64,000 bases of DNA from Tateyamaria sp. Alg231-49 (lineage in GTDB: Bacteria; Pseudomonadota; Alphaproteobacteria; Rhodobacterales; Rhodobacteraceae), in NCBI RefSeq assembly GCF_900143535.1, contig NZ_FRFA01000002.1, forward strand, positions 186,001 through 250,000. The letters are read 5' to 3'. Position 1 is the first letter of the stretch, and each line of letters opens with the position of its first letter. A model generated the notes under the pieces. That model saw nothing but the letters and a program-made list of their open reading frames with translations, was not told where the DNA came from and did not search any database. Position numbers and translations under genes: made by a program. Positions 12,509 through 30,337 of the stretch are shown here, in pieces.

Positions 12509-12811
12509 GAGATCACGCTATCAAAGCGGGCTGGTTTCCGCAAAGCTGCGCAGAAAGGTCAGATAAACAGGGCCGGGGTCGTGCGGTGGGCTTGGTGCTC
12601 TAGGCATAGCCGCGCCGCTCTTTTTCGATCTGGTATGGATCATGGCGGTGATGCCCCGCTCGCCAACGCAAATGCCCGCCGTGAATTTTGCAGCCTTTGG
12701 ACAAAAGGGCCCGCTGCCTGCGCGCTTATGGCGCCCCTTGGGACAAGCTGGGGAAACCCGCAAACAGGGCTGGTAACACCCCGCAAAAACGGTCAAATTT
12801 GGCGTCGAAAA
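12509..12811. other. Divergent promoter region between the sensor kinase and the tungstate transporter
   Basis: About 300 bp separate the minus-strand kinase start from the plus-strand tupB. Both transcripts must begin here. No clear -35/-10 pair or molybdate/tungstate operator was identified by eye. Open frames that run through here upstream of tupB are not transporter-like. Confidence 0.4.
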
Positions 12812-13534
12812 GTGCAGGGAGGATCGGCCATCGTCGATCTATGGGAAGGGTTGTACCAAGCCTTTTGGCTGGTCGTCACATTCGATGCAGAGTTGGCAGA
12901 GATCGCGCTCCGCTCGCTTCGCGTCACCCTGACCGCGTTGGTTATCGCCTGCCTGATCGCCCTCCCGTTATCTGCACTTCTGGCGGTCCGCCGGTTTCGT
13001 TGGCGACGCACCGTGATTGCCATTTTGAACGCGCTTATGGGGTTGCCGCCCGTGGTCGTGGGATTGATCGTCTATATTTTTCTGTCCCGTTCAGGACCAT
13101 TGGGCGCGCTTGGGTTGCTGTTCACCCCAACCGCAATGATCGTGGCGCAGGTGATCATCATTGTGCCTCTCATCGCCTCAATCGCGCACCAGTCATTGCG
13201 CGACCTCTGGGCGGAATATCACGACCTGCTCATTTCACTTAACGTTTCGCAGTTTCAAAAAATCCGCACGCTTTTGTGGGATGCACGGCGTGCGCTGTTG
13301 ACGGCCGCCTTGGCTGGGTTTGGCCGTGGGACCGGCGAGGTTGGAGCCATCATGATCGTGGGCGGCAACATCGACCACGCGACCCGCGTTTTGACCACCG
13401 CCATCGCACTGGAAACCGGCAAGGGTCAGTTTGCGCTCGCGCTTGCTTTGGGATTTGTCCTGATCGCTTTGGCACTGAGCGTAAATCTGGCGATCCACTG
13501 GGTGGGCCAAACGGAACGGGACAGCCGATGGTGA
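12812..13534 (+). CDS. tupB: Tungstate ABC transporter permease TupB
   Basis: About 235 residues with five or six membrane helices and the permease-ATPase coupling loop ISLNVSQFQKIRTLLWDARRA, ending in GFGRGTGEVGAIMIVGGNI, a hallmark of TupB permeases. It precedes tupC (7 bp overlap) and tupA. The start is unusual: the only strong ribosome site, GGGAGGA at 12817-12823, is correctly spaced for an ATC codon at 12830 in frame, whereas the in-frame GTG at 12812 lacks a ribosome site. The GTG is used here as a conservative boundary; the true start may be ATC at 12830 or TTG at 12851. Confidence 0.88.
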   Translation: MQGGSAIVDLWEGLYQAFWLVVTFDAELAEIALRSLRVTLTALVIACLIALPLSALLAVRRFRWRRTVIAILNALMGLPPVVVGLIVYIFLSRSGPLGALGLLFTPTAMIVAQVIIIVPLIASIAHQSLRDLWAEYHDLLISLNVSQFQKIRTLLWDARRALLTAALAGFGRGTGEVGAIMIVGGNIDHATRVLTTAIALETGKGQFALALALGFVLIALALSVNLAIHWVGQTERDSRW

Positions 13535-14244
13535 CCGAACTGTTTCCCTTGACCCTTGAGGGCGCCGAGACCTCGCGTCGTGGCAAGCGCCTTGTCGGGC
13601 CGGTTGATCTGCGGCTTGACGGTGAGGGGTTGTGCGTGGTGATTGGGCCGAACGGGGCGGGCAAGACCACGCTTTTGCGGTTGATGCACGGTACTGCGCG
13701 GCTGACCGGCGGGCGTATCAATTGGGCTTGTGCGACGGATCAGGCGCGGCACCATCAGGCCTTTGTCTTTCAGCGACCCATCGTCTTGCGTCGTACGGTC
13801 GAAGAAAACCTGACCTACCCGTTGCGTTTGCGGCGTGTGGCCAAAGCGGAGGCGCGCACGGCGGCGCGGGAGTGGGCAGAGCGGGTTGGCCTTTCGCAAT
13901 TGCTGGGCCATCGGGCAGGGGTTTTGTCAGGTGGTGAACAACAAAAGCTGGCCATCGCCCGGGCCTTGATCACAAACCCCGCATTGGTGTTTCTGGACGA
14001 ACCAACCGCCTCGCTTGACGGGCGGGCCACGCGCGAGATTGAGGGCATTCTGCAGCAAGCCAAGGCGGATGGAACGCGCCTGATCCTGTCGACGCATGAC
14101 ATGGGTCAGGCCCGGCGCATCGGCGATCTGGTTGTGTTCATGTTGGGCGGCAAAGTGCACGAAACCGCACCCGCATCTGCATTCTTTGACACCGCAACGA
14201 CGCCCGAGGCGCGGGCATTTATCAATGGAGACATTGTCGAATGA
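13528..14244 (+). CDS. tupC: Tungstate ABC transporter ATP-binding protein TupC
   Basis: 238 residues. Walker A GPNGAGKTT (about 40-48), Q-loop region FQRPIVLRRTVEENL, signature LSGGEQQKLAIARAL, Walker B ALVFLDEPTASLD and the switch His in LSTHDMGQA. The ATG at 13528 overlaps the tupB stop by 7 bp, and the gene's stop overlaps the tupA start by 4 bp. It powers uptake through TupB. The assignment to tungstate rather than another substrate rests mainly on the TupA sequence next door. Confidence 0.93.
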   Translation: MVTELFPLTLEGAETSRRGKRLVGPVDLRLDGEGLCVVIGPNGAGKTTLLRLMHGTARLTGGRINWACATDQARHHQAFVFQRPIVLRRTVEENLTYPLRLRRVAKAEARTAAREWAERVGLSQLLGHRAGVLSGGEQQKLAIARALITNPALVFLDEPTASLDGRATREIEGILQQAKADGTRLILSTHDMGQARRIGDLVVFMLGGKVHETAPASAFFDTATTPEARAFINGDIVE

Positions 14245-15041
14245 AACAGACACTGGGATTGGCCATTCTTGCCATTTTTGCAACTGGCATCGCCCATGCC
14301 GATGCGCTGCGCATGGCGGTCACAACGTCCTTTCACAACTCCGGTCTGGCCGAAGTTCTGTTGCCCGAAATCAAGGATGACTTGGGTTTGGAGGTGCAGT
14401 TGTTGGTGGTTGGCACGGGGCAGGCGCTCAAGCTTGGTCAGGCGGGGGATGTCGATGCGATCCTTGTCCATTCCCGGGCGTCTGAAGAGGCGTTTGTTGC
14501 TGACGGATACGGCACGCACCGACGCGAGATCATGTACAATGACTTTGTCCTGATAGGCCCTGCTGCGGACCCTGCGCGCATTCAGGGCGCGGCTGAGGTC
14601 ACGGATGCGCTGTCTGCCATAGCGGCGGGAGAGGCCAGTTTTGTCAGCCGTGGCGACGACAGCGGGACTCATAAGAAAGAAGTGAGTTTGTGGACTGGCG
14701 CGGGTCTTGACCCGGACAGTTTTGGGCCGTGGTATCGCGCGGTTGGCTCAGGAATGGGCGCTGCACTGAACACCGCGTCGGGCCTTGACGCCTACATCAT
14801 ATCGGACCGGGCCAGTTGGCTGAATTTCGGAAATAAGGGTGATCTGGCGCTGTTGTTTGCAGGCGACCCGGTGTTGTTCAACCAATATGCCTTTTTGCCT
14901 GTAGATCCCGCCCGGCATCCGCACGTCAAAGCCGAACTGGTGAACAAGCTGGAAGGGTGGCTCACGTCACCGCGCGCTGCTGCTTTGATCGATGGCTATA
15001 TGATTGATGGCGAAACACTTTTTGTGTTCAACGCGAAATAA
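14241..15041 (+). CDS. tupA: Tungstate-binding periplasmic protein TupA
   Basis: 266 residues with a Sec signal peptide (cleavage near AHA-DALRM). Family motifs: TTSFHNSGL (about 28-36, oxyanion-binding), GTGQALKLGQAGDVDAILVH (about 58-77) and SRGDDSGTHKKE. These match TupA rather than ModA. It captures tungstate (possibly also molybdate) in the periplasm for TupBC. Tungstate supply fits the adjacent formate dehydrogenase, whose bis-MGD cofactor can carry W. The C-terminal segment from W240 to F261 (GWLTSPRAAALID...DGETLFVF) recurs with identical spacing in the cytochrome fusion at 17552. Confidence 0.94.
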   Translation: MKQTLGLAILAIFATGIAHADALRMAVTTSFHNSGLAEVLLPEIKDDLGLEVQLLVVGTGQALKLGQAGDVDAILVHSRASEEAFVADGYGTHRREIMYNDFVLIGPAADPARIQGAAEVTDALSAIAAGEASFVSRGDDSGTHKKEVSLWTGAGLDPDSFGPWYRAVGSGMGAALNTASGLDAYIISDRASWLNFGNKGDLALLFAGDPVLFNQYAFLPVDPARHPHVKAELVNKLEGWLTSPRAAALIDGYMIDGETLFVFNAK

Positions 15042-16242: not shown

Positions 16243-17300
16243 GCGACACCCTTTGCAATGAGGGCCGCCGCGACGTCCTGAAACGCCTTGGCTTGTGGTC
16301 CGTCTGGCTGACTGACAGTGATCGGTGCGCCCCCGTCAGAGGCAAGGCGGATTTGCAGATCCAGCGGCACCTCGGCCAAAAGAGGGATGTCCAGTTTTGC
16401 GGCTTCTGCCGCGACGCCGCCGTGGCCAAACACATGCTCTTCATGGCCGCAGTTTGAACAGATATGCGTGCTCATATTCTCGATCATGCCGACGATGGGC
16501 ACATTTAACTGGTTGAACATGTCGATGCCTTTGCGGGCGTCAATCATGGCCACATCCTGCGGTGTGGATACTATGATCGCACCATCCACCGGGGCTTTTT
16601 GTGCCAGCGTCATCTGCACGTCGCCGGTGCCCGGCGGCAGATCCACGATCAGCACATCGAGTGCACCCCATTGGACCTGCGTCATCATCTGTTGCAACGC
16701 GCCCATCAGCATGGGGCCACGCCAGACCACCGCCTGATCCTCGTTCGTCATCAGGCCGATAGACATCATCGTCACGCCATGGTTGCGCATCGGCAGGATC
16801 GTCTTGCCATCGGGTGAAGCGGGGCGCCCGGACACGCCGAGCATGCGTGGCTGCGACGGGCCGTAAACATCAGCGTCCAAAAGACCAACGCGCCGCCCCT
16901 GTTGCGCAAGCGCGCAGGCGATATTGGCGGACACGGTCGATTTGCCCACGCCGCCCTTGCCCGATGCAATCGCCAGAATGCGGTCGATACCGGGGATTTT
17001 CTGCGGGCCTTTCGGCTCTGCCGCTTTGGACGGGCGCAGGTCAGGTGGGGGGGCCTTTTCGGTGTGGCCGGTCAGCACGATGGACACCTGATTGATGCCC
17101 TCCATCGCGCCCAAAGCGGCCTCGGCCTTGCTTTTGATGTCTTCATAGATCGCGGCGTCTGCCGGGTTGATTTCCATCACAAAGCGCACAGCGCCGTCCG
17201 CCACATTCAACGCCCGCATCACACCGCTGGACACGATGTCGCCGCCCGGTGCCTCGAGGCCCTTGAGAACGTCGAGTACTTGTTCCCTGCTTGTGCTCAC
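16239..17300 (-). CDS. Mrp/NBP35-type P-loop ATPase (iron-sulfur carrier, ApbC-like)
   Basis: 353 residues. An N-terminal MIP18/DUF59-like domain (about 5-80) is followed by the deviant Walker A ASGKGGVGKST (about 112-122), VGLLDADVYGPSQPRML, LIVDLPPGTGD and a C-terminal CxxC (HICSNCGHEE) that bridges a shared [4Fe-4S] cluster in the dimer. The start is a GTG at 17300 with AGGA upstream. The family delivers Fe-S clusters to apoproteins. Its place between DUF6494 and the ligase-like gene, beside three multi-cluster proteins (18280, FdhA, FdhB), suggests Fe-S loading of the formate dehydrogenase system; it may equally be the general cellular copy. Confidence 0.92.
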   Translation of the reverse strand: MSTSREQVLDVLKGLEAPGGDIVSSGVMRALNVADGAVRFVMEINPADAAIYEDIKSKAEAALGAMEGINQVSIVLTGHTEKAPPPDLRPSKAAEPKGPQKIPGIDRILAIASGKGGVGKSTVSANIACALAQQGRRVGLLDADVYGPSQPRMLGVSGRPASPDGKTILPMRNHGVTMMSIGLMTNEDQAVVWRGPMLMGALQQMMTQVQWGALDVLIVDLPPGTGDVQMTLAQKAPVDGAIIVSTPQDVAMIDARKGIDMFNQLNVPIVGMIENMSTHICSNCGHEEHVFGHGGVAAEAAKLDIPLLAEVPLDLQIRLASDGGAPITVSQPDGPQAKAFQDVAAALIAKGVA

Positions 17301-17303
17301 GCG

Positions 17304-17495
17304 TCAGTCCTGCCCGGAAATTGTGCCGGAGACCTCGTGGGTCATCCCCAGCTCTTCGATGGTGATCACAGCCTTGACCGCGTAGCTTTTGCCACTGGCG
17401 CCGCCCGTGCGCACCGCCTCTTCGATCGCCTGCTGCGAGGTCACGCCGACCTGTTTCAGGAATTTGCGCATGGACATGTTGAAGTCGTCGCTCAT
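17304..17495 (-). CDS. Small DUF6494-family protein
   Basis: 63 residues beginning MSDDFNMSMRKFLKQVGVTS, with no signal peptide, membrane helix or Cys. An excellent ribosome site (AAGGAG) precedes the ATG. It resembles the short DUF6494 family that accompanies formate dehydrogenase loci. It is the first gene of the minus-strand accessory operon and sits 3 bp ahead of the Mrp ATPase gene. Function unknown; its constant linkage suggests an adaptor or maturation partner. Confidence 0.8.
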   Translation of the reverse strand: MSDDFNMSMRKFLKQVGVTSQQAIEEAVRTGGASGKSYAVKAVITIEELGMTHEVSGTISGQD

Positions 17496-17551
17496 GGGTT
17501 TTGCTCTCCTTGTCGTTGACGGAATGCGGGTGGGGTGCCTAATCTGGCCTC

Positions 17552-18286
17552 ATGCGCATCCTTGTTGTTTTGATAGTGATGTTGTTGCCCGGCCTTGCAA
17601 GGGCAGATGACCGACAAGTCTCGCTTTACGCGCCGCCGGCGCTGATCGAAAGCGGGCTGGTTCAGCACATCAAGCCGCGATTTTCCCTGAAAACGCAGGT
17701 TAAGGTCGATATTGTGGGCAGCGTCGATGCGGCTGATATTGTTCTGGGTGCCGAGGGTAGACCCCTGTTTTCCGGCCTTGATGCGGTGTGGCATCTGGAT
17801 CAGCGGCGCGACACCAAAGGTGCGGACCGTTTTGCCGAGTGGCTGGTATCTGAGATCGGGACGCGCACAATTCTGTCGTTCGCCCCTGACGGTACGCCGG
17901 TTTTTGCACCGCCGCCAGAAGAGACCGCCGCCACCGTCGCGGTTGAAATATCGCGCGAAGCGATTGCTGGAAAAGAGGTGTCGTATGTCAAATGCAGCCG
18001 CTGTCACGTGACCGAGCGGGGCAGAGGCATCTTTGGCATCGGCTCGACCCCCAGCTTTGCAGTGATGCGGGGTTTTGAGGATTGGGAGGCACGCTTTGCT
18101 GCCTTTTTCGTGTTGAACCCGCACGAGGCGTTTACCCAGATTGAGGGCGTAACCGAGCCTTTCCCGTTGGATCGCCCGTCGCCGATTTCGCCCATTGTTA
18201 TGACGCTGGACGACCTCGACGCCATTCTGGCCTATGTGGCCATCGTCGAACCTGCCGATTTGGGTAAACCGCTCGAACATCAGTGA
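17552..18286 (+). CDS. Secreted cytochrome c fused to a TupA-like single lobe
   Basis: 244 residues. Signal peptide 1-18 (cleavage after ARA). Residues 21-70 (VSLYAPPALIESGLVQHI...VDAADIVLGAEG) resemble the first part of TupA (residues 23-77), and residues 94-118 (FAEWLVS...APDGTPVF) match the end of TupA (residues 237-261): the Trp-to-Asp-Gly and Trp-to-Phe spacings (16 and 21 residues) are identical. TupA's middle lobe is absent. Residues 145-160 carry a c-type heme site C148-S-R-C151-H152, and the rest looks like a class I cytochrome. Divergent from the DUF6494 operon. Plausible roles: electron acceptor for formate dehydrogenase or redox/oxyanion sensor; both are inference. Confidence 0.85.
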   Translation: MRILVVLIVMLLPGLARADDRQVSLYAPPALIESGLVQHIKPRFSLKTQVKVDIVGSVDAADIVLGAEGRPLFSGLDAVWHLDQRRDTKGADRFAEWLVSEIGTRTILSFAPDGTPVFAPPPEETAATVAVEISREAIAGKEVSYVKCSRCHVTERGRGIFGIGSTPSFAVMRGFEDWEARFAAFFVLNPHEAFTQIEGVTEPFPLDRPSPISPIVMTLDDLDAILAYVAIVEPADLGKPLEHQ

Positions 18287-20226
18287 TCGCGCCGTTTTGA
18301 CAGATAGTCTTCGGTGGTGCGCACGCGGGGCTTTTCGCCGCCCTGAAACGGGTTGTCGGTCGAATGGAATTGGGCCGTCACCCGACAGTTGTCGCACATC
18401 TGGATCATCCGCAATTTGTCGCCTGCAAACATTGCGTGATCCTTGAGCTTGTCAGTGATCCTGTCGATTGCGGATTTTGAGCCAAAGAGGGACCCGCACT
18501 CGATGCAGGGAAAGGGCTCTTCTTCGTTTAAGACTTCCTGAGACAGGGCCGCGTCTGTCAGGTCGAGGCGCGGTTCGTAGGTGATAGCGTCTTCGGGGCA
18601 GATATTGGCGCAAAGGCCGCATTGCAGGCATGCGTCTTCCTGAAACCTGAGCTGCGGTTTGTCGGAGTTGTCGCCAAGCGCGCCGGACGGGCAGAGCGAC
18701 ACGCAGCTAAGGCAGAGCGTGCAGGCGTCAGTATCGACCAGAACCGCACCATAGGGCGCGCCGTCGGGCAGCGGCACCTGATCGGTGTCAGGGTGCAGGG
18801 CCCTCGCGGCCTGACGCGTGATCTGGCGGCGTGTGCCCATTGGACGGACCGGTTGTTCGATGGGGGCGGGGGCTGTTTGGTCATAGAGCGCGGCGCTCAT
18901 TGCATCGGGGTCTGTCGTGTCCAGCAGCGTGCCCTTGCCTGCGCCAGCAATTGCGTTTGCCAAGGCAATCTGTGTTTCCAACGCTGGCAGATCAGCGTTA
19001 GGGCCGGGCAACAGCGTGACTGTGGCAAACCCCGCGGCAAGGCCCGCGACCGCCTCGGCATGACCGAAGGCTCCGATGGCCGACATCTCCATCGGGATCA
19101 CATCGGCGGGCAGTCCGCGTCCATGGCGGGCCGACAAACGGATCATCTCGGCCCCATGGGCGTCGTGCACAAGCAGGCGCGGTGCGTGGCCGCCAGCGGC
19201 GAGATAGGCCTTGGCCAGCGTCTGAACCCGCTGCATCGTGTGATCGACTGGTGGCGCATCATAGGTGATTGCACCGGACGGGCAGGCGGCAGAACAGGCG
19301 CCGCAGCCAGCGCAGATCATAGGGTCAATTGCCACGTGGTCGCCAGCCGATGTGATCGCTCCGGTGGGGCATAGATCAAGGCAATTGGTGCACCCGGTTT
19401 GCTCGGCCCGGCTGTGCGCACAGAGCAGGGGGGCTGTTTGGACGTAGAGCGTTTTTTCGAAGGTGCCCGTCATGTGCGAGGCGGCCATCACGGCGGCGGC
19501 AACGCCCAGCGCATGCGTGGGATCGGCGCGCAAGTATCCATCCCGCTTTTCCGGTGCGGGGAACAAGGGCGTTTGCCCGCGCAAGTCCAGAATAATGTCG
19601 CATTGCGAAATGGCGCCATCGCGAGGATCGGTCAAAGAAAAAGCACCGCGCCCGCCCGGGTCCACTTGTTGCAATGCGTCAATGACAACCTCAAAGGCCG
19701 CAAAAGAACCCGATGCGCGGCGCAATTTGCCCAGCACAACGTCAAAGGCGCGGGTGTCAGGCACTTCGCTGGGCTCGTCGATCAATACGGTAACGCCCAG
19801 ATGATCCTTGAGCTGGTCCGCGGCCGCCAGAGCCACATCAGCGGGGCCAAGGATCAGGCAGAGCCCCTCGCTGATCACATCAACGGTCTTTTCTTGGGCT
19901 TCTGGCAGCATCGCCTCGGCAATCAGTGCGGACATTTTGGGCAGTTTTGGGGTGTCATCCGCGCTCCAACCGGCGCGGTCGCGCAGGTCGAGCGTATGGG
20001 GGGCAGGGCGATCAAGACCCTCTGCCAGCTCTTCGAAAACGCGGGCCTCCTGGGTGCAACAAAAAACCGCGTCACCCCCCTCTAGGGCGGCTTGGGCGCG
20101 TTCAAGTTGCGTGGTGCACAGGGCAGAACAGGGGGGGCGGACGTCTAGGCCGGTGGCCTCGGACAAGGCCGTTGCATCGATGGTTTGAGTGCCCAAACAA
20201 TCGCATGTTATCAATGATTTGACCAC
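18280..20226 (-). CDS. Multi-[4Fe-4S] ferredoxin-domain protein of the formate dehydrogenase locus
   Basis: About 648 residues, cytoplasmic. Four classical 4Fe-4S motifs are visible in two pairs: CTNCLDLCP and CAGCGACSAACP in the middle, CTLCLSCVSLCP and CLQCGLCANICP near the C terminus. Extra Cys groups occur at the N terminus (TCDCLGTQT, PPCSALCTTQ, FCCTQEA) and near the end (CIECGSLFGS, CDNCR). The frame is open to 20331, but the GTG at 20226 preceded by GGGGGAGA is the better start and yields VKSLITCDCLG, the expected N terminus. Probably an electron-transfer or maturation partner of formate dehydrogenase. Its last codons overlap the 3' end of the convergent cytochrome fusion by 7 bp. Confidence 0.87.
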   Translation of the reverse strand: MVKSLITCDCLGTQTIDATALSEATGLDVRPPCSALCTTQLERAQAALEGGDAVFCCTQEARVFEELAEGLDRPAPHTLDLRDRAGWSADDTPKLPKMSALIAEAMLPEAQEKTVDVISEGLCLILGPADVALAAADQLKDHLGVTVLIDEPSEVPDTRAFDVVLGKLRRASGSFAAFEVVIDALQQVDPGGRGAFSLTDPRDGAISQCDIILDLRGQTPLFPAPEKRDGYLRADPTHALGVAAAVMAASHMTGTFEKTLYVQTAPLLCAHSRAEQTGCTNCLDLCPTGAITSAGDHVAIDPMICAGCGACSAACPSGAITYDAPPVDHTMQRVQTLAKAYLAAGGHAPRLLVHDAHGAEMIRLSARHGRGLPADVIPMEMSAIGAFGHAEAVAGLAAGFATVTLLPGPNADLPALETQIALANAIAGAGKGTLLDTTDPDAMSAALYDQTAPAPIEQPVRPMGTRRQITRQAARALHPDTDQVPLPDGAPYGAVLVDTDACTLCLSCVSLCPSGALGDNSDKPQLRFQEDACLQCGLCANICPEDAITYEPRLDLTDAALSQEVLNEEEPFPCIECGSLFGSKSAIDRITDKLKDHAMFAGDKLRMIQMCDNCRVTAQFHSTDNPFQGGEKPRVRTTEDYLSKRRDH

Positions 20227-20557
20227 GTAATTCTCCCCCTCGGCAAGGGCATTTTTTGCCCCGTTTTTGCCTGCCTGTTGTCGCCAGCCTAGACATGATT
20301 CGCGTGACTTCACAAACCGAATTCGTCGCATGGCACGCAGCGATTCAATGCCAGAAGGCTGTAGTGATTCGCGAATTCGTATGCGGCGGCATTCCCGACT
20401 TAATCAGTCGAGTTAGACATTTCGTCCTTTGGTGGGTCACGACCTTGGACAGGCTGGCCAAATTGCAAAAACATGCCCTCGGGGCGCTTCGGGAGACAGA
20501 AAGCTCTTCTCTGATGAAAAATCCGGCAGTTTAATAAGATTAACGGGAGGACGTAGG
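20227..20557. promoter_or_regulatory. Divergent control region between the Fe-S protein and the formate dehydrogenase operon
   Basis: 331 bp without a gene, feeding both the minus-strand Fe-S protein and the plus-strand DUF3305-to-FdhC operon. It contains GATTCGCG twice (20297-20304, 20366-20373), CGAATTCGT twice (20318-20326, 20372-20380), a perfect palindrome ATTCGCGAAT (20367-20376), and a dyad CGACT-N5-AGTCG (20396-20410). These are candidate operators, perhaps for the linked response regulator; no convincing sigma-54 or sigma-70 promoter was found. Confidence 0.45.
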
Positions 20558-21127
20558 GTGATCCGAAACCCAGACCAGCATCGGTCCATGACTTTGGGCG
20601 TCGTATTACGGCGCCTTCCTGGCGTGACACGCTGGGCCTCCTACAGCTGGAAAGCGGTTGCGGTGCTGCCCGGTGCGGGCATTGCCCACTGGCAAGAACT
20701 GCGCCGCGAAGGCGAAGCGATTGAGTACCACGCCGCCACCTTGTCCCTTGATCTGCACGGCGCCGAAACCGAAGCCTACCTGCATGGCCTCTCGGCCGAG
20801 GTGCCATCGATCTATGTGGTGATGCGCGAAAGCGAGGATGAGGGCGCCGAACCGCTTGACGTGCTCTTGGTCACGGCCTCGCCCTATGAAGCGCAGGACT
20901 ATACCGACAGCGGCGAAGAGATCGTGGAGAAGGTTCCAATGCCCGAAGGGCTGATGGCGTGGGTGCAGGATTTTGTCACCGCGTTTCATCAGGACGAGGT
21001 GTTCATCAAGCGCAAGCGCGACAAGAAGCGCATTGATCTGACGCAGGATGGCATTGGCGATCCGCGTATTCAGTCGGTGGCCGACATCTATGCCTCGCCC
21101 GCCCGTCAGCGGAGGCGGATCCATTGA
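20558..21127 (+). CDS. DUF3305 protein of the formate dehydrogenase operon
   Basis: 189 residues. The start is a GTG at 20558, 8 nt after GGGAGG; the open frame extends upstream without family resemblance. Begins after an arginine-rich stretch with MTLGVVLRRLPGVTRWASYSWKAVAVLPGAG, typical of DUF3305. Soluble, no signal peptide. DUF3305 proteins are encoded directly upstream of DUF3306 and TorD-like genes in formate dehydrogenase loci of alpha- and betaproteobacteria; the biochemical function is unknown. Its stop overlaps the TTG start of the DUF3306 gene. Confidence 0.88.
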   Translation: MIRNPDQHRSMTLGVVLRRLPGVTRWASYSWKAVAVLPGAGIAHWQELRREGEAIEYHAATLSLDLHGAETEAYLHGLSAEVPSIYVVMRESEDEGAEPLDVLLVTASPYEAQDYTDSGEEIVEKVPMPEGLMAWVQDFVTAFHQDEVFIKRKRDKKRIDLTQDGIGDPRIQSVADIYASPARQRRRIH

Positions 21128-21723
21128 GCGGCGCACATGAAAAACCCCGCGATTTCTGGTCTCGCCGCCGGGCTGATGTTGAGGCTGAGGCGCAGGTTGA
21201 AGACGCTTTGGATCATGCGCGTGTGGCCGAGGTAGAGGACGCGAAGCTGGCCGAACGGTCGGACGAAGAGATTTTGGCAGAGCTGGACCTGCTGGAGCCT
21301 GAGGCGTTGGAAAGTCCTGATCAGGTGCGCGAGTTTTTGAATTCCGCGGTGCCGCAGCGTTTGAAGACCCGTGCTTTGCGCAGGCTTTGGCGGCTGAACC
21401 CGATATTCGCAAACCTCGACGGGTTGGTGGATTACGGCGAGGATTTCACGGATGCGGCCATGGTCATCGAGAATATGCAGACCGTGTATCAGGTAGGCAA
21501 AGGTATGCTAACCGCCTTTGTCGATGACGAAGAAGAAGACGAAGAGATCACGGACGAGACGTCCGAGGATGAAGACGAAAAGACACAAGCCCCAACCCTG
21601 ACCGACGAAGAGGAGGAGGCCCCTATGATCGTGGCGGCCGCCCCTGACTCTTTGCCAGAACCCGAACCCGCGCCAGTGGCCATGCCCCAGCGCCGGATGC
21701 GGTTTGCTTTTGACACTGCCTGA
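21124..21723 (+). CDS. DUF3306 protein of the formate dehydrogenase operon
   Basis: 199 residues with a TTG start that overlaps the upstream stop by 4 bp. The N-terminal RDFWSRRRADVEAEA and central LKTRALRRLWRLNPIFANLDGLVDYGEDFTD are the conserved DUF3306 core. The C-terminal ~65 residues are low-complexity and very acidic (DDEEEDEEITDE...), ending in QRRMRFAFDTA, so the protein likely has a disordered tail. Function unknown; strictly linked to the operon's DUF3305 and TorD-like genes, which suggests a maturation role. Confidence 0.88.
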   Translation: MSGAHEKPRDFWSRRRADVEAEAQVEDALDHARVAEVEDAKLAERSDEEILAELDLLEPEALESPDQVREFLNSAVPQRLKTRALRRLWRLNPIFANLDGLVDYGEDFTDAAMVIENMQTVYQVGKGMLTAFVDDEEEDEEITDETSEDEDEKTQAPTLTDEEEEAPMIVAAAPDSLPEPEPAPVAMPQRRMRFAFDTA

Positions 21724-21725
21724 GG

Positions 21726-22349
21726 ATGGATGAGACCAATATGACAGCCGCCCCCGATACCACGATCAGCGATATGGATCGCGCCCGTGCGGACCTTTAC
21801 AACTTTCTCGGCGCCCTTTTGGCCAATCCGCCAGAAGAGATGTTGTTGACCCAGACTGCCGGTCTGTCTGGCGATGATACCGAATTGGGTCAGGCCATCG
21901 GCACGCTGGCGAAGCTGGCAAAGGTGACCAAGCCCAAGGCCGCTGAATCCGAGTTCAACAAGCTGTTCATTGGTTTGGGTCGGGGCGAATTGTTGCCTTT
22001 CGCCAGCTACTACCTGACCGGTTTCCTGAACGAAAAACCGCTGGCCGCCCTGCGTCAGGCGATGACAGCCAAGGGCATGCAGCGATCCGAAACCGTGTTT
22101 GAACCCGAAGATAGCATTGCCAGCCTGATGGAAATGATGGGCGCGATGATTGTGGGCCGCTTTGACAAGCCGGCGGATATCACCACGCAAAAGCAGTTCT
22201 TTAATACCCATGTGGCCCCTTGGGCCTCACATTTCTTTACCGATCTGGAAGAGGCCAAAAATTCGGTCTTTTACAGCCCCGTGGGCACGGTCGGTAAAAT
22301 TTTCATGTCTGTAGAGGCGGAAGCCTTTCGGATGAGCGGGGCGGAGTGA
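21726..22349 (+). CDS. TorD/DmsD-like chaperone for the formate dehydrogenase catalytic subunit
   Basis: 207 residues, all-alpha. RADLYNFLGALLANPPEE, ESEFNKLFIGLGRGELLPFASYYLTGFL and EDSIASLMEMMGAMI are typical of the TorD family of redox-enzyme maturation proteins, which bind the TAT signal peptide and apo-enzyme until the cofactor is inserted. Two starts are possible, ATG 21726 or ATG 21741; the latter has the better upstream purine stretch. Placed just ahead of the TAT-bearing mini-protein and FdhA, so FdhA is the likely client. Confidence 0.9.
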   Translation: MDETNMTAAPDTTISDMDRARADLYNFLGALLANPPEEMLLTQTAGLSGDDTELGQAIGTLAKLAKVTKPKAAESEFNKLFIGLGRGELLPFASYYLTGFLNEKPLAALRQAMTAKGMQRSETVFEPEDSIASLMEMMGAMIVGRFDKPADITTQKQFFNTHVAPWASHFFTDLEEAKNSVFYSPVGTVGKIFMSVEAEAFRMSGAE

Positions 22350-22404
22350 TCCGCGTCAAATGGGGCGGGCAACCGTCCTCAAACAGCGAAAGGAGACTTT
22401 TCGC

Positions 22405-22593
22405 ATGAGCAAGAAAGAAGAGGGTGCATCGCGCCGCGACTTTCTGAAGCTGGCCACGACCACGGCGCCCATAGCGGCGGCGGCGGTAGTAGCCGGGACC
22501 ACAGGGGCAGAGGCGGCTGAGCCGGATCTGAGCCTGGAAAAAATGCAGGATACCGCGCACACGCGTGCGTATTTTGACAGCGCTCGGTTCTAA
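22405..22593 (+). CDS. Formate dehydrogenase region TAT-signal mini-protein
   Basis: 62 residues starting at ATG 22405 after AAAGGAGA; the open frame begins earlier at 22360 without a ribosome site. It is essentially a twin-arginine signal (SRRDFLKLATTTAPIAAAAVVAG) followed by about 30 residues ending ARAYFDSARF-like (TRAYFDSARF). This corresponds to the 'formate dehydrogenase region TAT target' small proteins. Function unknown; it may be a small exported subunit or assembly factor. FdhA follows after 144 bp with no gene between. Confidence 0.88.
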   Translation: MSKKEEGASRRDFLKLATTTAPIAAAAVVAGTTGAEAAEPDLSLEKMQDTAHTRAYFDSARF

Positions 22594-22737
22594 CGAGCCA
22601 ATAGGGAGGGCCGCGCCCGGGAATAAGCCCGGACATGGCAGGTGAACAGCGACTGGTTGCGTGACGCCCGACTGCTGGAAGCCGAATAAAGCCAAGCAAG
22701 CGAACCCGCCAAGGGGGAGCAAGCAAGGGAGAGAGAA

Positions 22738-25635
22738 ATGCTTAGGAAAAAGACCAACGGGGTTGCGAGACGCTCCCAGCGGACAAGTATCCTGTCTGAG
22801 GCCGCAGGTGCCTCGGTGGACCGCCGCGCGTTTTTGCGCGGATCGGGACTGGTGATTGGGGGTCTGTCAGCGATTGCTGCCACAGGCGGAACCGTCACAC
22901 AGGCCAGCGCTGCGACGGCTGTCGCGGGGCAGGTAGATCTTAAAAAGTCAGTGTGCACGCACTGCTCGGTCGGCTGTACGGTCATTGCCGAAGTGCAGAA
23001 CGGCGTCTGGACGGGGCAGGAACCCGGCTGGGATAGCCCGTTCAACTTGGGTGCCCACTGTGCCAAAGGTGCCGCTGTTCGCGAGCACGCCCACGGCGAG
23101 CGTCGTCTGAAGTACCCGATGAAAAAAGAAAACGGGGAATGGAAGCGCGTTTCATGGGAGCAGGCCATCGACGAGATCGGCGGCGGCATGATGAAAATCC
23201 GGGAAGAAAGCGGCCCGGACAGCGTTTATTGGCTGGGTTCGGCCAAGCACAACAACGAACAGGCCTATCTGTTCCGCAAGTTTGCTGCCTACTGGGGCAC
23301 CAACAACGTGGATCACCAGGCCCGGATTTGTCACTCAACCACAGTTGCCGGTGTTGCAAACACCTGGGGCTATGGTGCGATGACGAACTCGTACAACGAC
23401 ATCCACAATTCCAAGTCGATCTTTATCATCGGCGGCAACCCGGCCGAGGCGCACCCTGTGTCCTTGCTCCACTTGCTCCGTGCCAAAGAACAGAACAACG
23501 CCCCCGTCATCGTGTGTGACCCGCGCTTTACCCGCACGGCCGCCCATGCGGACGAGTACGTTCGTTTCCGTCCCGGATCGGACGTGGCTTTGGTTTGGGG
23601 TATCCTGTACCACATCTTTGAAAACGGCTGGGAAGACAAAGAGTTCATCCGCACCCGTGTCTGGGGTATGGACCAGATCAAGGAAGAGGTCGCCAAGTGG
23701 ACCCCTGAAGAAGTCGAACGTGTGACCGGCGCGCCCGGTTCGCAACTGCGTCGCGTGGCCCGGACACTGGCCAACAACCGCCCCGGCACCGTGATCTGGT
23801 GTATGGGTGGTACGCAGCACACCAACGGCAACAACAACACCCGTGCCTACTGCATCCTGCAACTGGCCCTTGGCAATATGGGCACCGCAGGCGGCGGCAC
23901 CAATATCTTCCGCGGCCACGACAACGTGCAAGGTGCCACGGACCTTGGTGTTTTGTCCCACACACTGCCAGGCTACTATGGTCTGAGCGCAGGCGCTTGG
24001 GCCCACTGGGGTCGCGTTTGGGGTGAAGACGCCGATTGGCTGGGTGGACAGTTTGCCACCACCACCGGTGTCGACGGCAAGGAAAAGTCACTTCAGAACC
24101 TGTCGGGTATTCCCGTCTCGCGCTGGATCGACGGTGTCCTTGAAGATCCCGACAACATGGACAACCCGAACAAAGTCCGGGCCATGGTGTTCTGGGGCCA
24201 CGCGCCGAACTCTCAGACCCGTATGGTCGAGATGAAGAAGGCCATGGAAGAGCTGGACATGCTGGTCGTCATCGACCCGTTCCCCACAGTCTCTGCCGTG
24301 CTGCATGATCGCACCGATGGTGTGTATCTGTTGCCTGCGTGTACCCAGTTCGAAACGCGTGGCTCTGTCACCGCGTCGAACCGGTCCATCCAGTGGCGCG
24401 AACAGGTCATTGATCCGTTGTTCGAATCCAAGCGGGACGAAGAGATCATTGCTCTGCTCGCCCAAAAGTTCGGGTTCCACGAGCGTCTCTTCCGCAACAT
24501 CAAGCTGGAAGAAGATGGCCTGACGCCCGAGCCTGAGGACACGCTGCGCGAGATCAATCGCGGCATGTGGACGGTCGGTTATACTGGTCAGTCGCCTGAG
24601 CGGATCAAGAAGCACATGGAGAACCAGCACACGTTTGATCGCACCACTTTGCAGGCCATTGGTGGCCCCGCAGATGGCGATTACTACGGTCTGCCATGGC
24701 CCAGCTGGGGCACGCCCGAGATGAACCACCCGGGCACGCCGAACCTTTACGACATGTCCAAGCCTGTTGCTGAGGGTGGTTTGACCTTCCGTGCGCGCTT
24801 TGGTGTCGAGCGGGATGGCGAAAACCTTTTGGCCGAAGGGGTCTATAGCGTTGGATCGGAAATTCAGGATGGATATCCCGAATTCACGATGCAGATGTTG
24901 ATGGATCTGGGTTGGGACGGTGATCTGACAGCGGATGAACGCGCTGCCATTGATGCCGTTGCAGGTGCCAAGACCAACTGGAAGACCGACCTGTCGGGCG
25001 GTATTCAGCGGGTCGCCATTGCACATGGCTGTGCGCCCTTTGGCAATGCCAAGGCCCGTACCGTCGTGTGGACGTTCCCTGATCCGGTGCCTATCCACCG
25101 CGAGCCTCTGTACACAAACCGCAGAGACCTTGTGGAGGATTACCCCACCTACGAGGACCGTCATGCCTACCGCCTGCCGACGCTGTATGCGTCGATCCAA
25201 AAGCAGGACTTTTCGAAGGACTATCCGATCATCCTCACGTCCGGCCGTCTGGTCGAATACGAGGGCGGCGGCGACGAGACACGGTCGAACCCGTGGCTGG
25301 CCGAGCTGCAGCAGGACATGTTCGTCGAGATCAACACGCGGGACGCCAATAACCTTGGTGTGCGTGATGGTCAGCAGGTCTGGGTCGAAGGGCCCGAAGG
25401 CGGCAAGGTCAAGGTTATGGCAATGGTCACCAACAGGGTCGGCGCGGGCGTAGCCTTTATGCCGTTCCACTTTGGTGGGCACTTCCAGGGCGAAGACCAG
25501 AGGTCCAAATACCCCGACGGGGCGGACCCCTATGTGCTTGGTGAATCCACCAACACGGCCCAAACCTATGGCTATGATTCAGTAACCCAGATGCAAGAGA
25601 CGAAAGCCACTCTTTGCAAAATCTGGACAGCGTAA
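22738..25635 (+). CDS. fdhA: Formate dehydrogenase catalytic subunit, Mo/W-bis-MGD, TAT-exported
   Basis: 965 residues. A long TAT leader has RRAFLRGSG at 29-37. The N-terminal [4Fe-4S] cluster is held by C73, C76, C80 and C108 (CTHCSVGC...HC). The active-site stretch DHQARICHSTTVAG places Cys198 (codon TGT) as the metal ligand where Sec occurs in E. coli FdnG, with His199 following as expected. Further markers: GGNPAEAHPV, NNNTRAYCILQLALGNMG and the C-terminal molybdopterin-dinucleotide domain. It oxidises formate to CO2 in the periplasm. The linked tungstate transporter suggests W rather than Mo. Start after AAGGGAGAGAGAA; followed by fdhB after 12 bp. Confidence 0.96.
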   Translation: MLRKKTNGVARRSQRTSILSEAAGASVDRRAFLRGSGLVIGGLSAIAATGGTVTQASAATAVAGQVDLKKSVCTHCSVGCTVIAEVQNGVWTGQEPGWDSPFNLGAHCAKGAAVREHAHGERRLKYPMKKENGEWKRVSWEQAIDEIGGGMMKIREESGPDSVYWLGSAKHNNEQAYLFRKFAAYWGTNNVDHQARICHSTTVAGVANTWGYGAMTNSYNDIHNSKSIFIIGGNPAEAHPVSLLHLLRAKEQNNAPVIVCDPRFTRTAAHADEYVRFRPGSDVALVWGILYHIFENGWEDKEFIRTRVWGMDQIKEEVAKWTPEEVERVTGAPGSQLRRVARTLANNRPGTVIWCMGGTQHTNGNNNTRAYCILQLALGNMGTAGGGTNIFRGHDNVQGATDLGVLSHTLPGYYGLSAGAWAHWGRVWGEDADWLGGQFATTTGVDGKEKSLQNLSGIPVSRWIDGVLEDPDNMDNPNKVRAMVFWGHAPNSQTRMVEMKKAMEELDMLVVIDPFPTVSAVLHDRTDGVYLLPACTQFETRGSVTASNRSIQWREQVIDPLFESKRDEEIIALLAQKFGFHERLFRNIKLEEDGLTPEPEDTLREINRGMWTVGYTGQSPERIKKHMENQHTFDRTTLQAIGGPADGDYYGLPWPSWGTPEMNHPGTPNLYDMSKPVAEGGLTFRARFGVERDGENLLAEGVYSVGSEIQDGYPEFTMQMLMDLGWDGDLTADERAAIDAVAGAKTNWKTDLSGGIQRVAIAHGCAPFGNAKARTVVWTFPDPVPIHREPLYTNRRDLVEDYPTYEDRHAYRLPTLYASIQKQDFSKDYPIILTSGRLVEYEGGGDETRSNPWLAELQQDMFVEINTRDANNLGVRDGQQVWVEGPEGGKVKVMAMVTNRVGAGVAFMPFHFGGHFQGEDQRSKYPDGADPYVLGESTNTAQTYGYDSVTQMQETKATLCKIWTA

Positions 25636-25647
25636 GGAGGATACGAC

Positions 25648-26256
25648 ATGGCATTAGGAGGACAGGCTCGCGCCAAGTTCCTGTGCGACGCCGAGCGCTG
25701 CATTGAATGCAACGCCTGTGTGACCGCATGCAAAAACGAGCATGAGGTGCCATGGGGCATCAACCGCCGCCGCGTGGTGACCATCAACGATGGTGACCCC
25801 GGTGAACGGTCGATCTCTGTGGCATGCATGCACTGTTCGGACGCGCCTTGTATGGCCGTTTGCCCGGTAGACTGCTTTTACCAAAACGAGGAAGGGGTGG
25901 TTCTCCACTCCAAAGACCTCTGCATTGGTTGCGGTTATTGCTTTTACGCGTGCCCGTTTGGTGCGCCGCAATTCCCACAAGCAGGCAACTTTGGCAGCCG
26001 GGGCAAAATGGACAAGTGTACATTCTGCGCCGGTGGTCCGGAGGAAACCCACTCGACCGCCGAATTCGCCAAGTACGGGCGCAACCGGATCGCCGAGGGC
26101 AAGCTGCCCATCTGCGCCGAGATGTGTTCGACCAAGGCGTTGCTGGCGGGGGATGGCGACGTTGTGTCAGGCATCTACCGCGAACGCGTCGTGGCCCGTG
26201 GCTTTGGCTCGGGCGCTTGGGGCTGGGGTTCTGCCTACGGCAACCAAGGCGGCTGA
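25648..26256 (+). CDS. fdhB: Formate dehydrogenase iron-sulfur subunit (FDH3 beta type)
   Basis: 202 residues with four 4Fe-4S motifs of the dicluster type: CIECNACVTAC, CMHCSDAPCMAVCP, CIGCGYCFYACP and CTFC...CAEMC. It passes electrons from FdhA to the cytochrome b subunit. No signal peptide, as expected for a subunit exported by hitch-hiking with TAT-bearing FdhA. Unlike FdnH of E. coli, it lacks a C-terminal membrane helix and ends GSGAWGWGSAYGNQGG. Preceded by GGAGG with good spacing. Confidence 0.95.
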   Translation: MALGGQARAKFLCDAERCIECNACVTACKNEHEVPWGINRRRVVTINDGDPGERSISVACMHCSDAPCMAVCPVDCFYQNEEGVVLHSKDLCIGCGYCFYACPFGAPQFPQAGNFGSRGKMDKCTFCAGGPEETHSTAEFAKYGRNRIAEGKLPICAEMCSTKALLAGDGDVVSGIYRERVVARGFGSGAWGWGSAYGNQGG

Positions 26257-26272
26257 TCCGCAAAAGCAAAGC

Positions 26273-26376
26273 CAAAGGCGCGATACCATATTGCGCCTTT
26301 GAACACCGGGAACAGGTTTTGAAATCTGTTCCCGGGACCTTTGACAGTTTCCGACCGGCTTTCTTTCAAAGAAAGC
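26273..26376 (+). promoter_or_regulatory. Three tandem hairpins between fdhB and fdhC
   Basis: Three separate inverted repeats fill the 147-bp gap. Hairpin 1: CAAAGGCGC / GCGCCTTTG (26273-26281 / 26293-26301). Hairpin 2: CCGGGAACAG / CTGTTCCCGG (26306-26315 / 26326-26335). Hairpin 3: GCTTTC / GAAAGC with an A-T extendable loop (26358-26363 / 26371-26376). None is followed by a run of T, so they look like mRNA-stability or processing elements that set subunit ratios rather than a full terminator. Confidence 0.75.
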
Positions 26377-26403
26377 GGTCTCTGCATCTAATCGAGGACA
26401 ATC

Positions 26404-27600
26404 ATGCGAATTCTTCTGAGTGTGATAACAGCGCTGTTTCTGGCCCTCCCGGCCATGGCACAGGACACTGCAACAGCACCCGACCGGTCCGCCACTGGCG
26501 GTGCCACAACGCTCGAAGACATCATGGCCCGACAGCGGGGAGAACAGGTTGACCAATCCTATCGCCGTGAAAATACAGGCGACCCGGACAGTGCGGCCGG
26601 CATGGCCTCTCAATTGGGCACGCTTGGCGGTGCTTCTGACCCCGAGCTGTGGCGCGCGTTGCGTTTTGGATCGGCCGACATCACCGTGTCGTCAGGGGGC
26701 GAAGTCGCCTCTGTCCTGATCCAGGATGGCGGCATGTCGTGGTTACAGTTTCGCCAAGGGCCGCTGGCCAAATACGGCGGCTATCTGCTTTTGGGCACCA
26801 TTGCGCTTCTGCTCGTGTTCTTTGTCCTGCGCGGGCGGGTCAAACTGGATTACGAAAAGACTGGGCGCACTGTAACCCGGTTCAAAACATTTGAGCGGGC
26901 CTCGCACTGGCTGCTGGCCGGATCGTTTATCCTGCTTGGGATCACCGGCCTTTTGACCTTGTTCGGGCGCATGTTCATCGCGCCCTACATCTCCAAAGAG
27001 TTCAATGCGACGCTGCTTTTGGCCTCAAAGTTCATCCACAACAACGTGGCGTGGGCCTTCATTGTGGCGTTGATTGCGGTGTTCTTCCTTTGGGTCTGGC
27101 ACAACATTCCGAACCGCACAGACATCACTTGGTTTGCTCAGGCGGGCGGTATCATCGGCTCGAAACACCCGCCGGCTAAAAAGTTCAACGGCGGGCAAAA
27201 GATTATCTTCTGGAGCGTCATTCTATTGGGGAGTTCTATCTCGCTCTCTGGCGTGTCGCTACTCTTTCCTTTCGAGCTGCCGATGTTCATGAAGACCTTT
27301 GATCTGATGCGTAGTGTGGGCATTGAAACGCTCCCCATCTACGGGCCGTTGCCCATTGGTCTCGCCCCACATGAAGAAATGCAATACGCCCAAGCGTGGC
27401 ACGCCATCGTCGCTTTTGTCCTGATGGCGATCATCATTGCCCACATTTATATCGGGTCGATTGGCATGGAAGGTGCCTATGACGCGATGGGATCGGGCGA
27501 GGTGGACGAGGCCTGGGCTCGTCAACACCATTCGCTCTGGCTCGAAGAGTTGGAGGCAAAAGGCAAGGTTGCGCCCAAAGATGCGACACCTGCTGAGTAG
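26404..27600 (+). CDS. fdhC: Formate dehydrogenase cytochrome b556 subunit (gamma)
   Basis: 398 residues. Sec signal peptide (cleavage after AMA), a ~100-residue periplasmic N-terminal extension, a first membrane helix at about 125-142, then four heme-b helices with candidate ligands in FERASHWLL, SKFIHNNVAW, VWHNIPN and AQAWHAIVAF/IIAHIYIG. It anchors FdhAB and hands electrons to the quinone pool. The long N-terminal extension is common in alphaproteobacterial members. Its 3' end overlaps the WD40-cytochrome start by 20 bp, implying translational coupling. Confidence 0.94.
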   Translation: MRILLSVITALFLALPAMAQDTATAPDRSATGGATTLEDIMARQRGEQVDQSYRRENTGDPDSAAGMASQLGTLGGASDPELWRALRFGSADITVSSGGEVASVLIQDGGMSWLQFRQGPLAKYGGYLLLGTIALLLVFFVLRGRVKLDYEKTGRTVTRFKTFERASHWLLAGSFILLGITGLLTLFGRMFIAPYISKEFNATLLLASKFIHNNVAWAFIVALIAVFFLWVWHNIPNRTDITWFAQAGGIIGSKHPPAKKFNGGQKIIFWSVILLGSSISLSGVSLLFPFELPMFMKTFDLMRSVGIETLPIYGPLPIGLAPHEEMQYAQAWHAIVAFVLMAIIIAHIYIGSIGMEGAYDAMGSGEVDEAWARQHHSLWLEELEAKGKVAPKDATPAE

Positions 27601-28855
27601 TCTGATGTTGTGTCTGGCGCTGCCCGCTGCGGCGCAGGACTTCAACACCTATAAGGGCCATGGTGGGCCCGTTATGGGGCTGGTTGTGACAGAGGATGGC
27701 ACACTGGCCTCAGCCAGTTTTGACAACTCTGTCGGCGTTTGGGATGGGCCCGAACCCCGCTGGCTGGAAGGCCATGATGCGGCCGTGACTGCGATCGCGC
27801 AGGGCACAGATGGGACGTTGATCTCAGGCGGTGATGACTTTGCTGTTTGGCATTGGGGCGACACCCCGCGCAAGATTGGCCAGCACAAGGGCAAGGTCAC
27901 CTCATTGGCGGCCTCACCTGATGGAACGTTCATTGCGAGCGGGTCGTGGGATGGAGATATTGTCCTGTGGCCCATGGCACAGGGACAGGCCGTGACCCTG
28001 CCTTATGCCGGAGCAGGGGTGAACGCAGTGGCGTACACACCTGATGGTAAGGCCCTGTTTGCTGCTACGTCCAAAGGTGATCTGCTGCGCTATGACGTGC
28101 AAACTATGGATACACCGCGTCCGGTGGTTCGGCATGGGTTCGGGATCAACAGGTTACATGTCGGGGACGGCTGGGTGGCTTATGGCGCGGTAGACGGCGG
28201 CACAAGGGTGGTGGACGCCGACACCGGCGCGCAGATTGCCGACTTCACGCTTGATCGGCGTCCGATCCTCGCCTTGACGCATCACGCAGCTACGGGTCAG
28301 CTGGCCATTGGGGACGGCGAAGGCCACATCATGATGGTGGATACAAACAGCTGGCGGATCAGCCGCGATTTTCGTGCCATGCGGGCGGGGCCGGTCTGGG
28401 CGCTGGCCTTTTCGCAGGACGGCACAATTATCCATGCCGGTGGCATCGACGATGTGATCTATGCTTGGCCTGTGGCACTGCTTGACACATATGATCCGGC
28501 GGGTGGCGAAGGGCGCAGTTTTCTGCGGGACGCCGCCACAATGAGCAATGGAGAAAGGCAGTTCATGCGCAAATGCTCCATCTGTCACAGCCTTGACGCG
28601 GGGCCTTCGCGCAAGGCCGGGCCGACCCTGCACGGGATATTTGGCCGCAGGGCAGGGACATTGCCGGACTATCGATTTTCACCCATTCTGGACGGGTCGA
28701 CGATTGTCTGGGACGAAACGACCATCGACGCCCTGTTTGACGAGGGCCCCGATCACTATATTCCAGGCTCAAAGATGCCGATGCAGGTGATCGCGCAACC
28801 CCAAGACCGGGCCGACCTGATCGCATTTCTGCGCACGGCCACCAATAAGGAGTGA
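27581..28855 (+). CDS. Secreted WD40-repeat protein fused to a C-terminal cytochrome c
   Basis: 424 residues. Signal peptide MRHLLSSLMLCLALPAAAQ, then about seven WD40-like repeats (GHGGPVMGLVVTEDGTLASASFDNSV..., HKGKVTSLAASPDGTFIASGSWDGDI...) to ~residue 300, then a class I cytochrome c with C332-S-I-C335-H336 and a probable distal Met in GSKMPMQ. The ATG at 27581 is inside the end of fdhC; the frame is open further upstream but overlaps fdhC. Probably a periplasmic electron carrier or scaffold docking on formate dehydrogenase; this is inference from coupling with fdhC and co-location with another cytochrome fusion. Confidence 0.9.
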   Translation: MRHLLSSLMLCLALPAAAQDFNTYKGHGGPVMGLVVTEDGTLASASFDNSVGVWDGPEPRWLEGHDAAVTAIAQGTDGTLISGGDDFAVWHWGDTPRKIGQHKGKVTSLAASPDGTFIASGSWDGDIVLWPMAQGQAVTLPYAGAGVNAVAYTPDGKALFAATSKGDLLRYDVQTMDTPRPVVRHGFGINRLHVGDGWVAYGAVDGGTRVVDADTGAQIADFTLDRRPILALTHHAATGQLAIGDGEGHIMMVDTNSWRISRDFRAMRAGPVWALAFSQDGTIIHAGGIDDVIYAWPVALLDTYDPAGGEGRSFLRDAATMSNGERQFMRKCSICHSLDAGPSRKAGPTLHGIFGRRAGTLPDYRFSPILDGSTIVWDETTIDALFDEGPDHYIPGSKMPMQVIAQPQDRADLIAFLRTATNKE

Positions 28856-28987: not shown

Positions 28988-30337
28988 ATGAACGAGACGG
29001 CCCGGGCCACGCCCGACATGTACGGCACATCGCTTGCCGGCGCTTCGATATTGGTGATCGATGATGAAGTGGGCATGCGCCACTTTCTGACCAAGACGTT
29101 TGAGGCGCGGGTCAAGCGGGTGCATGCTGTCGGATCGCCTGCGCAAGCGTCCAAGGCGCTGGACGAGGCGCAATATGATTTGGTGATTATCGACAACCTG
29201 ATGCCCGGTGGCACTGGCCTTGATTGGCTGAACGAGCAGCAGCGCAAAGGGTTCTTTGCTGATGTGATCATGATCACCGCTTATGCGGATTTGGAAACCG
29301 CCATTGCCGCCTTGCGAGCGGGGGTCAGTGATTTTGTTCTCAAACCCTTCCGCGCCAACCAGATTCTGAGCGCTGTGGCCCGGACACTGGACCGCAAATA
29401 CCTGCAACGGGACAACACACTGCTGCGCCGTGAACTGTCGACTGGCGCGCAGCGGGGCAAATTGCTGGGCAACTCCGATCCGATGGAAACGGTACGCACT
29501 ATGCTTAACCGTCTTGCCCCTTTGCCGACGCCGGTGCTGTTCACCGGGGCCAGCGGCACGGGTAAGGAACTGGCCGCCCGTCATTTGCATGATGCATCCA
29601 ACCGGGCCGAGGCCCCCTTTGTGCCGATCAACTGCGCAACGCTGCAACCTGACCGCTTTGCCCAAGAACTCTTTGGTTCGGTCGAAGGAGAGGACCATCT
29701 GAAACCCGGTTTGCTGCTGCTGGCCGATGGCGGGACACTGTTTCTGGACGAGGTCGCGCAGATGCCTGAAACGGTTCAGGCGGCCCTGCTGCGCGTGTTA
29801 GAGGAGAAAAAAGTGCGCCCCGTAGGGGCCGAGCGTGAGATCCCGTTGAACCTGCGGTTTCTGTTCGCCACCAACGACGACATCGAAGCGGCCGTGGCTG
29901 CGGGCCGGTTCCGCGAAGACCTTTATCACCGCATTCACGTGGTCAAGATCGACATGCCCCATCTGCGCGACCGCATGGAGGATATCGTTGAACTGGCTGC
30001 ACATTTTATGGCACATTTTTCGGAAAGCCTTGGAATGCCTTCGCTTGAACTGGATGCCGAGACGTTGCTGAAACTGCGCCGATACGACTGGCCCGGCAAT
30101 GTACGCGAACTGCGTAATTTGATCGAGAGGTCGGTGATCCTGGGCGCATTTCCGGATGCGTTTTCGGGCGATGGCAGTGTGACGGGCGCGCAAGCCATTG
30201 AGAACCTTGATCTGGTGACCCAACGCCACATCCTACGCATGCTGGACCGCTGTGACGGCAACCGCGCCGAAGCTGCACGTCGGCTGGGCGTGTCGCGGAA
30301 GACCATCGACCGTAAACTGGCGGTCTGGTCGGAGTAG
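28988..30337 (+). CDS. NtrC-family response regulator lacking the GAFTGA motif
   Basis: 449 residues: receiver domain with D25/D26, phospho-acceptor D69 (LVIIDNLMP) and K119; AAA+ domain with Walker A GASGTGKE (187-194) and Walker B GGTLFLDEV (about 248-256); C-terminal Fis-type HTH (GNRAEAARRLGVSRKTIDRKL). The sigma-54-contacting GAFTGA loop normally following ELFG is replaced by SVEGEDHLKP (231-240). Known parallel: Rhodobacter capsulatus NtrC lacks GAFTGA and works with sigma-70. Probably the partner of the kinase at 10532. Last gene of the formate dehydrogenase operon, so likely autoregulatory. Confidence 0.92.
   Translation: MNETARATPDMYGTSLAGASILVIDDEVGMRHFLTKTFEARVKRVHAVGSPAQASKALDEAQYDLVIIDNLMPGGTGLDWLNEQQRKGFFADVIMITAYADLETAIAALRAGVSDFVLKPFRANQILSAVARTLDRKYLQRDNTLLRRELSTGAQRGKLLGNSDPMETVRTMLNRLAPLPTPVLFTGASGTGKELAARHLHDASNRAEAPFVPINCATLQPDRFAQELFGSVEGEDHLKPGLLLLADGGTLFLDEVAQMPETVQAALLRVLEEKKVRPVGAEREIPLNLRFLFATNDDIEAAVAAGRFREDLYHRIHVVKIDMPHLRDRMEDIVELAAHFMAHFSESLGMPSLELDAETLLKLRRYDWPGNVRELRNLIERSVILGAFPDAFSGDGSVTGAQAIENLDLVTQRHILRMLDRCDGNRAEAARRLGVSRKTIDRKLAVWSE

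Follow-up and report, generated by a model that had tools for sequence, protein, structure and literature searches.

Binding-protein lobes usually act in pairs and hold the ligand between them. The tungstate receptor TupA (5my5, 3lr1; NF041772, PF12849) is such a two-lobed, cleft-forming protein. According to passages of PMC5517513, the TupA of D. alaskensis is made of lobe A (residues 2-76 and 201-251) and lobe B (residues 91-200), and tungstate is held by the TTTS motif in lobe A together with three residues from lobe B (R118, T124 and D170). A binding-protein-like component and a cytochrome that serve the same periplasmic dehydrogenase have also been described. In passages of PMC7391723, XoxF is accompanied by the binding-protein-like XoxJ and the cytochrome XoxG, and losing either XoxJ or XoxG is reported to be equivalent to losing XoxF in methanol-lanthanum medium.

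The stretch of Tateyamaria DNA analyzed here (64,000 nucleotides, hereafter the window) codes for a protein that joins one TupA-type lobe and a cytochrome c domain within a single chain. We refer to this 244-residue half-TupA/cytochrome c protein (17552..18286, + strand, defined by its open reading frame and translation) as CYT. It begins with a putative Sec signal peptide (residues 1-18; 17552..17605, +), recognized by eye from the ARA preceding DD, and the predicted structure has a helix over residues 2-15 of this region. The open reading frame is as described in the first-pass annotation, a reading of the letters made without database searches, and the Trp-to-Asp-Gly and Trp-to-Phe spacings noted there are exact in both CYT and TupA.

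The N-terminal half of CYT is homologous to lobe I of TupA and lacks lobe II. The domain spans residues 21-123 (17612..17920, +), a lobe of the periplasmic binding protein type is predicted for it, and the N-terminal regions of CYT homologs are related to TupA, so that the architecture proposed initially, half of a TupA followed by a cytochrome c domain, is supported. BLASTP between CYT and the TupA encoded in the window gives no significant match (E-value 0.63); residues 1-54 of the two proteins align index for index. Lobe II, which comprises about 150 residues in TupA, has no equivalent in the CYT family. At its place the predicted structure has two hinge strands (residues 70-75 and 78-84) linked by a short turn (residues 70-84 as a whole; 17759..17803, +).

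The binding residues of TupA have not been retained either. At the place of the oxyanion motif Thr-Thr-Ser, CYT has Pro-Pro-Ala (residues 28-30; 17633..17641, +). The comparison was made via the last three residues of the TTTS motif: in TupA, T28 and T29 are each present in 191 of 191 rows and S30 in 189, whereas none of the 244 rows of the CYT family has TTS, PPA being the most frequent triplet. (The rows are non-identical but related sequences, in part the same genes from two sources.) Across the same 244 rows we found no counterpart of the TupA GTG motif or of the invariant His77, Arg137 and Thr143. The lobe B ligands Arg118, Thr124 and Asp170, in the D. alaskensis numbering given in PMC5517513, are gone together with the lobe. 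Since the known oxyanion ligands have been lost, tungstate would not be expected to bind by the known site, and the tungstate-binding or oxyanion-sensing role put forward in the first-pass annotation is not supported. In contrast, the family has strictly conserved features of its own. The R-F-S-L-K segment (residues 43-47; 17678..17692, +) contains Arg43 and Lys47, both present in 244/244 rows; in TupA these positions are mostly acidic, and both are basic in only 2 of 192 rows. Several lobe residues (P42, R43, F44, K47, W97 and G103) are identical in every row. Thus, CYT differs from TupA in the absence of lobe II and of Thr-Thr-Ser, in the altered charge at positions 43 and 47 and in the added heme domain. 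It seems that a piece of a nutrient transporter has taken on a different task here.

Downstream of the lobe, residues 135-240 (17954..18271, +) form a cytochrome c domain, delineated by the predicted structure and by matches of relatives to Pfam Cytochrom_C (PF00034). At an E-value threshold of 0.1, the Pfam family is detected in 100 of 119 CYT family members (best E-value 2.5e-5), the protein of the window itself being without a match. Block means of the model in this domain range from 68 to 94 pLDDT; the fold-search lists, obtained with the full-length protein as the query, were filled by matches to the lobe and placed the cytochrome domain in no known structural family. The heme attachment site CSRCH (residues 148-152; 17993..18007, +), pointed out already on first reading, is invariant: C148, C151 and H152 are found in 244/244 rows. 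In class I cytochrome c the second heme ligand is usually Met. CYT has the CxxCH of class I-like cytochromes, and the Pfam similarity seen in its relatives is weak, but its family has no conserved Met C-terminal to the heme site (the most common Met column accounts for 110 of 244 rows) and instead has an invariant His191 (18122..18124, +; 244/244 rows). We therefore regard His191 as a candidate second ligand. Judging from this conservation pattern, the heme probably has either two His ligands (H152 and H191) or an open sixth site.

A phmmer search with CYT returned 433 proteins (E-value ≤1e-3), and a profile search with its family 1954. Among the matches listed (the best 120 of each search), the named relatives of CYT are annotated as hypothetical protein, cytochrome c domain-containing protein or c-type cytochrome. 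CYT itself has no match to Pfam or NCBIfam models at an E-value ≤1, including NF041772 and PF12849. We found no description of CYT, or of a fusion between a TupA lobe and a cytochrome, in the open-licence literature, and the fusion is not among the new molybdoprotein fusions in passages of PMC6147048. The domain combination is thus real, conserved and apparently undescribed in the open-licence literature.

The gene for CYT adjoins a formate dehydrogenase region. Tail to tail with it lies the gene for FeS4, a 683-residue protein with several 4Fe-4S sites (18280..20331, -). Head to head with it, 56 bp apart, is a gene for 63 residues (17304..17495, -), which we take to be DUF6494, and beyond that are Mrp-like, ligase-like and DUF6505 genes. 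No sigma-70-like promoter and no terminator were found within positions 17300-18500. On the other side of FeS4, a formate dehydrogenase cluster (20429..28855, +) codes for DUF3305, DUF3306, a TorD-like chaperone, three subunits that are presumably FdhA, FdhB and FdhC (named from the sequence), and a WD40-cytochrome c protein. The subunit names are backed by passages of PMC4464133, where DUF3305 and DUF3306 adjoining fdh operons have been described previously. The last protein of the cluster, a fusion of a WD40 beta-propeller and cytochrome c (CSICH, later KMPM; 27602-28855, +), is the second unusual cytochrome fusion within one cluster and is found in 58 of 80 loci. The tungstate transporter genes tupB, tupC and tupA (12581..15041, +) lie upstream of CYT. 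TupB and TupC were assigned by sequence and gene order, and TupA by NF041772 (E-value 2.5e-52, below the curated cut-off of the model) and PF12849. A sensor kinase containing a Cache-type domain (10532-12508, -) and a sigma-54 response regulator (28988-30337, +) flank the whole region and are probably its regulators.

The link to formate dehydrogenase is conserved. FeS4 directly neighbors CYT, in convergent orientation, in 79 of 80 named genome loci, and in the 80th the contig stops 79 bases past CYT. FdhA is present in 75 loci, and the remaining five have less than 5 kb of contig left. Among 20 loci retrieved with the matches of a 61-genome sample of the bacterial family, 19 have the order Mrp-CYT-FeS4, the exception being a gene for a cytochrome alone. 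The neighborhood of the tungstate transporter, to which the initial reading had drawn attention, is real in the window but varies among loci, in contrast to the formate dehydrogenase cluster, which is constantly nearby: 45 of the 80 retrieved loci contain TupA, and 26 of the other 35 had at least 9 kb upstream. One set of TupA matches is biased, as a match to the profile was itself the reason for retrieving many of the loci. In the same 61-genome sample, full-length CYT is present in 22 genomes, FeS4 in 30 and TupA in 42. Of the 30 genomes with FeS4, 21 have full-length CYT, compared with 1 of the 31 that lack FeS4 (Fisher p 2e-8, relatedness ignored), and that single genome is a draft with 82% completeness. 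TupA proteins of the family are of two types, 64-76% and 39-53% identical to that of the window, and some genomes have both.

Nine genomes with FeS4 have no full-length CYT. Two of them (G004 and G054) carry a cytochrome-only gene elsewhere, and in three others (G006, G038 and G013) CYT is cleanly missing from an FdhABC cluster that otherwise has the same order. Such intact clusters indicate that formate dehydrogenase does not need CYT everywhere. CYT is therefore an accessory gene with a conserved linkage to the formate dehydrogenase cluster.

Outside the bacterial family of the window, the two domains were not found together. Full-length CYT matches are restricted to that family (3 of 240 genomes in a class sample and 6 of 299 in a phylum sample, scoring being limited to the 9 to 11 top candidates per genome), and elsewhere in Alphaproteobacteria the search for the domain pair yields a cytochrome alone. 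FeS4, a good marker of the formate dehydrogenase cluster, occurs in 37 of 240 class-sample genomes. Cytochrome-only relatives (E-value ≤1e-8) were detected in seven of the 240, and all seven have FeS4. A weaker cytochrome-like match (E-value 4.6e-4) comes from a genome without FeS4 (G200). Stand-alone cytochromes in alphaproteobacterial formate dehydrogenase genomes are 125-152 residues long. They have the same cytochrome domain as CYT, with STPSF and PH motifs, and no TupA lobe. Among 12 non-redundant representatives, all keep the PH pair and 11 lack the Met of the usual PHPxM pattern. In one genome (G156, locus L109), a lobe-free gene for 144 residues lies between Mrp and FeS4, i.e. exactly at the position of CYT. 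In G167, G061 and G246 the cytochrome-only gene is within the same locus as the cluster, and in G139, G004, G054, G243 and G292 it is on a contig of its own, away from the cluster.

These relatives bear on the origin of the fusion. The first-pass annotation assumed that a TupA copy had lost lobe II and gained a cytochrome. The descent of lobe I is borne out, but the direction is not: because other Alphaproteobacteria that carry this formate dehydrogenase cluster have stand-alone relatives, the cytochrome probably existed first and acquired the lobe later. In the simplest scenario, this happened in a single bacterial family, where a TupA lobe was added to a cytochrome belonging to the formate dehydrogenase system. 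In a lobe I tree (22 CYT family rows and 56 TupA rows picked for diversity; only 63 columns, few and fast-evolving), the CYT family and TupA are separated by a branch with support of 99. The TupA of the window was considered as the donor of the lobe and rejected on weak grounds: it belongs to a distinct group of TupA sequences (support 100) at a distance of 3.3, compared with 1.6 for the nearest TupA.

As to function, we slightly favor the view that CYT works with formate dehydrogenase as an exported cytochrome c with a single heme, in which the lobe serves as a docking module and the heme as an accessory redox carrier or monitor. CYT would be exported to the periplasm and would belong to a membrane-bound formate dehydrogenase system that faces it. 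The TupA-type lobe I, now lacking both lobe II and the oxyanion motif, would act as a protein-docking module rather than as a tungstate receptor, and its family-specific Arg43/Lys47 patch may keep the heme beside a partner within this system. As for the partner and the direction of electron flow, we can only infer them. Of the three roles suggested at first reading, that of a docking cytochrome for formate dehydrogenase survives in this conditional form. Several observations count against CYT as a redox partner: three FdhABC clusters do without it, the WD40-cytochrome c protein and the cytochrome b subunit of the cluster could carry the electrons, the invariant residues may be structural, and the cytochrome-only relatives are frequently encoded away from the cluster. 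Regardless of the exact role, a large bacterial family has retained one lobe of a binding protein as a folded module that is attached to a heme domain and encoded inside a tungsten-type formate dehydrogenase cluster. This makes CYT a concrete candidate for a periplasmic partner of formate dehydrogenases. As relatives without the lobe and clusters without the gene exist, its role is open to genetic testing.

The best surviving alternative, though an unlikely one, is that CYT helps in maturation or activation, the half binding protein chaperoning formate dehydrogenase in the periplasm and the heme serving as an acceptor during activation. A role of this kind has been suggested for XoxJ with respect to the lanthanide methanol dehydrogenase, CYT combines the same two kinds of folds as XoxJ and XoxG, and its gene is located among maturation genes (Mrp-like and TorD-like). 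However, the likeness is an analogy only. XoxJ and XoxG are two separate proteins that serve a different enzyme, and the clusters without CYT speak against this alternative.

We give distinctly less weight to a brake or gauge on tungstate import, with the lobe docking on TupB in competition with TupA and linking uptake to the redox state of the heme. The lobe does descend from a TupA-type protein, and TupA is present in all 22 family-sample genomes with full-length CYT. Yet all 30 genomes with FeS4 have it, whether or not they also carry CYT, and formate dehydrogenase therefore accounts for the co-occurrence of CYT and TupA. In addition, TupA is missing from many CYT loci even where enough upstream sequence was available, and the invariant residues of the CYT family differ from those of TupA. 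No more probable, in our estimate, is a broader version, in which CYT docks on either the tungstate permease or formate dehydrogenase and switches this partner according to the redox state of the heme; if true, it would couple formate electron flow and tungsten supply in the periplasm. Still less convincing is the idea that only the cytochrome matters and the lobe is a relic or an inert spacer. Cytochrome-only relatives do exist, one of them between Mrp and FeS4, but an inert spacer would not need several invariant residues. Finally, a redox-linked sensor of tungstate or another oxyanion, for which only fold and descent speak, is highly improbable, given that Thr-Thr-Ser and the GTG motif are gone, as are the invariant His of TupA and the Arg and Thr of its lobe II.

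Two further observations concern the cluster as a whole. In G013, where CYT is also missing, FeS4 is split into two frames (locus L211, 9272-11289, -), possibly because the cluster is decaying or because of an error in sequencing. Relatives of CYT from Tateyamaria, Sulfitobacter and Sagittula are encoded on five plasmid records (NZ_CP019316.1, NZ_CP081121.1, NZ_CP126148.1, NZ_CP021914.1 and NZ_CP155732.1), and the cluster may therefore move on plasmids.
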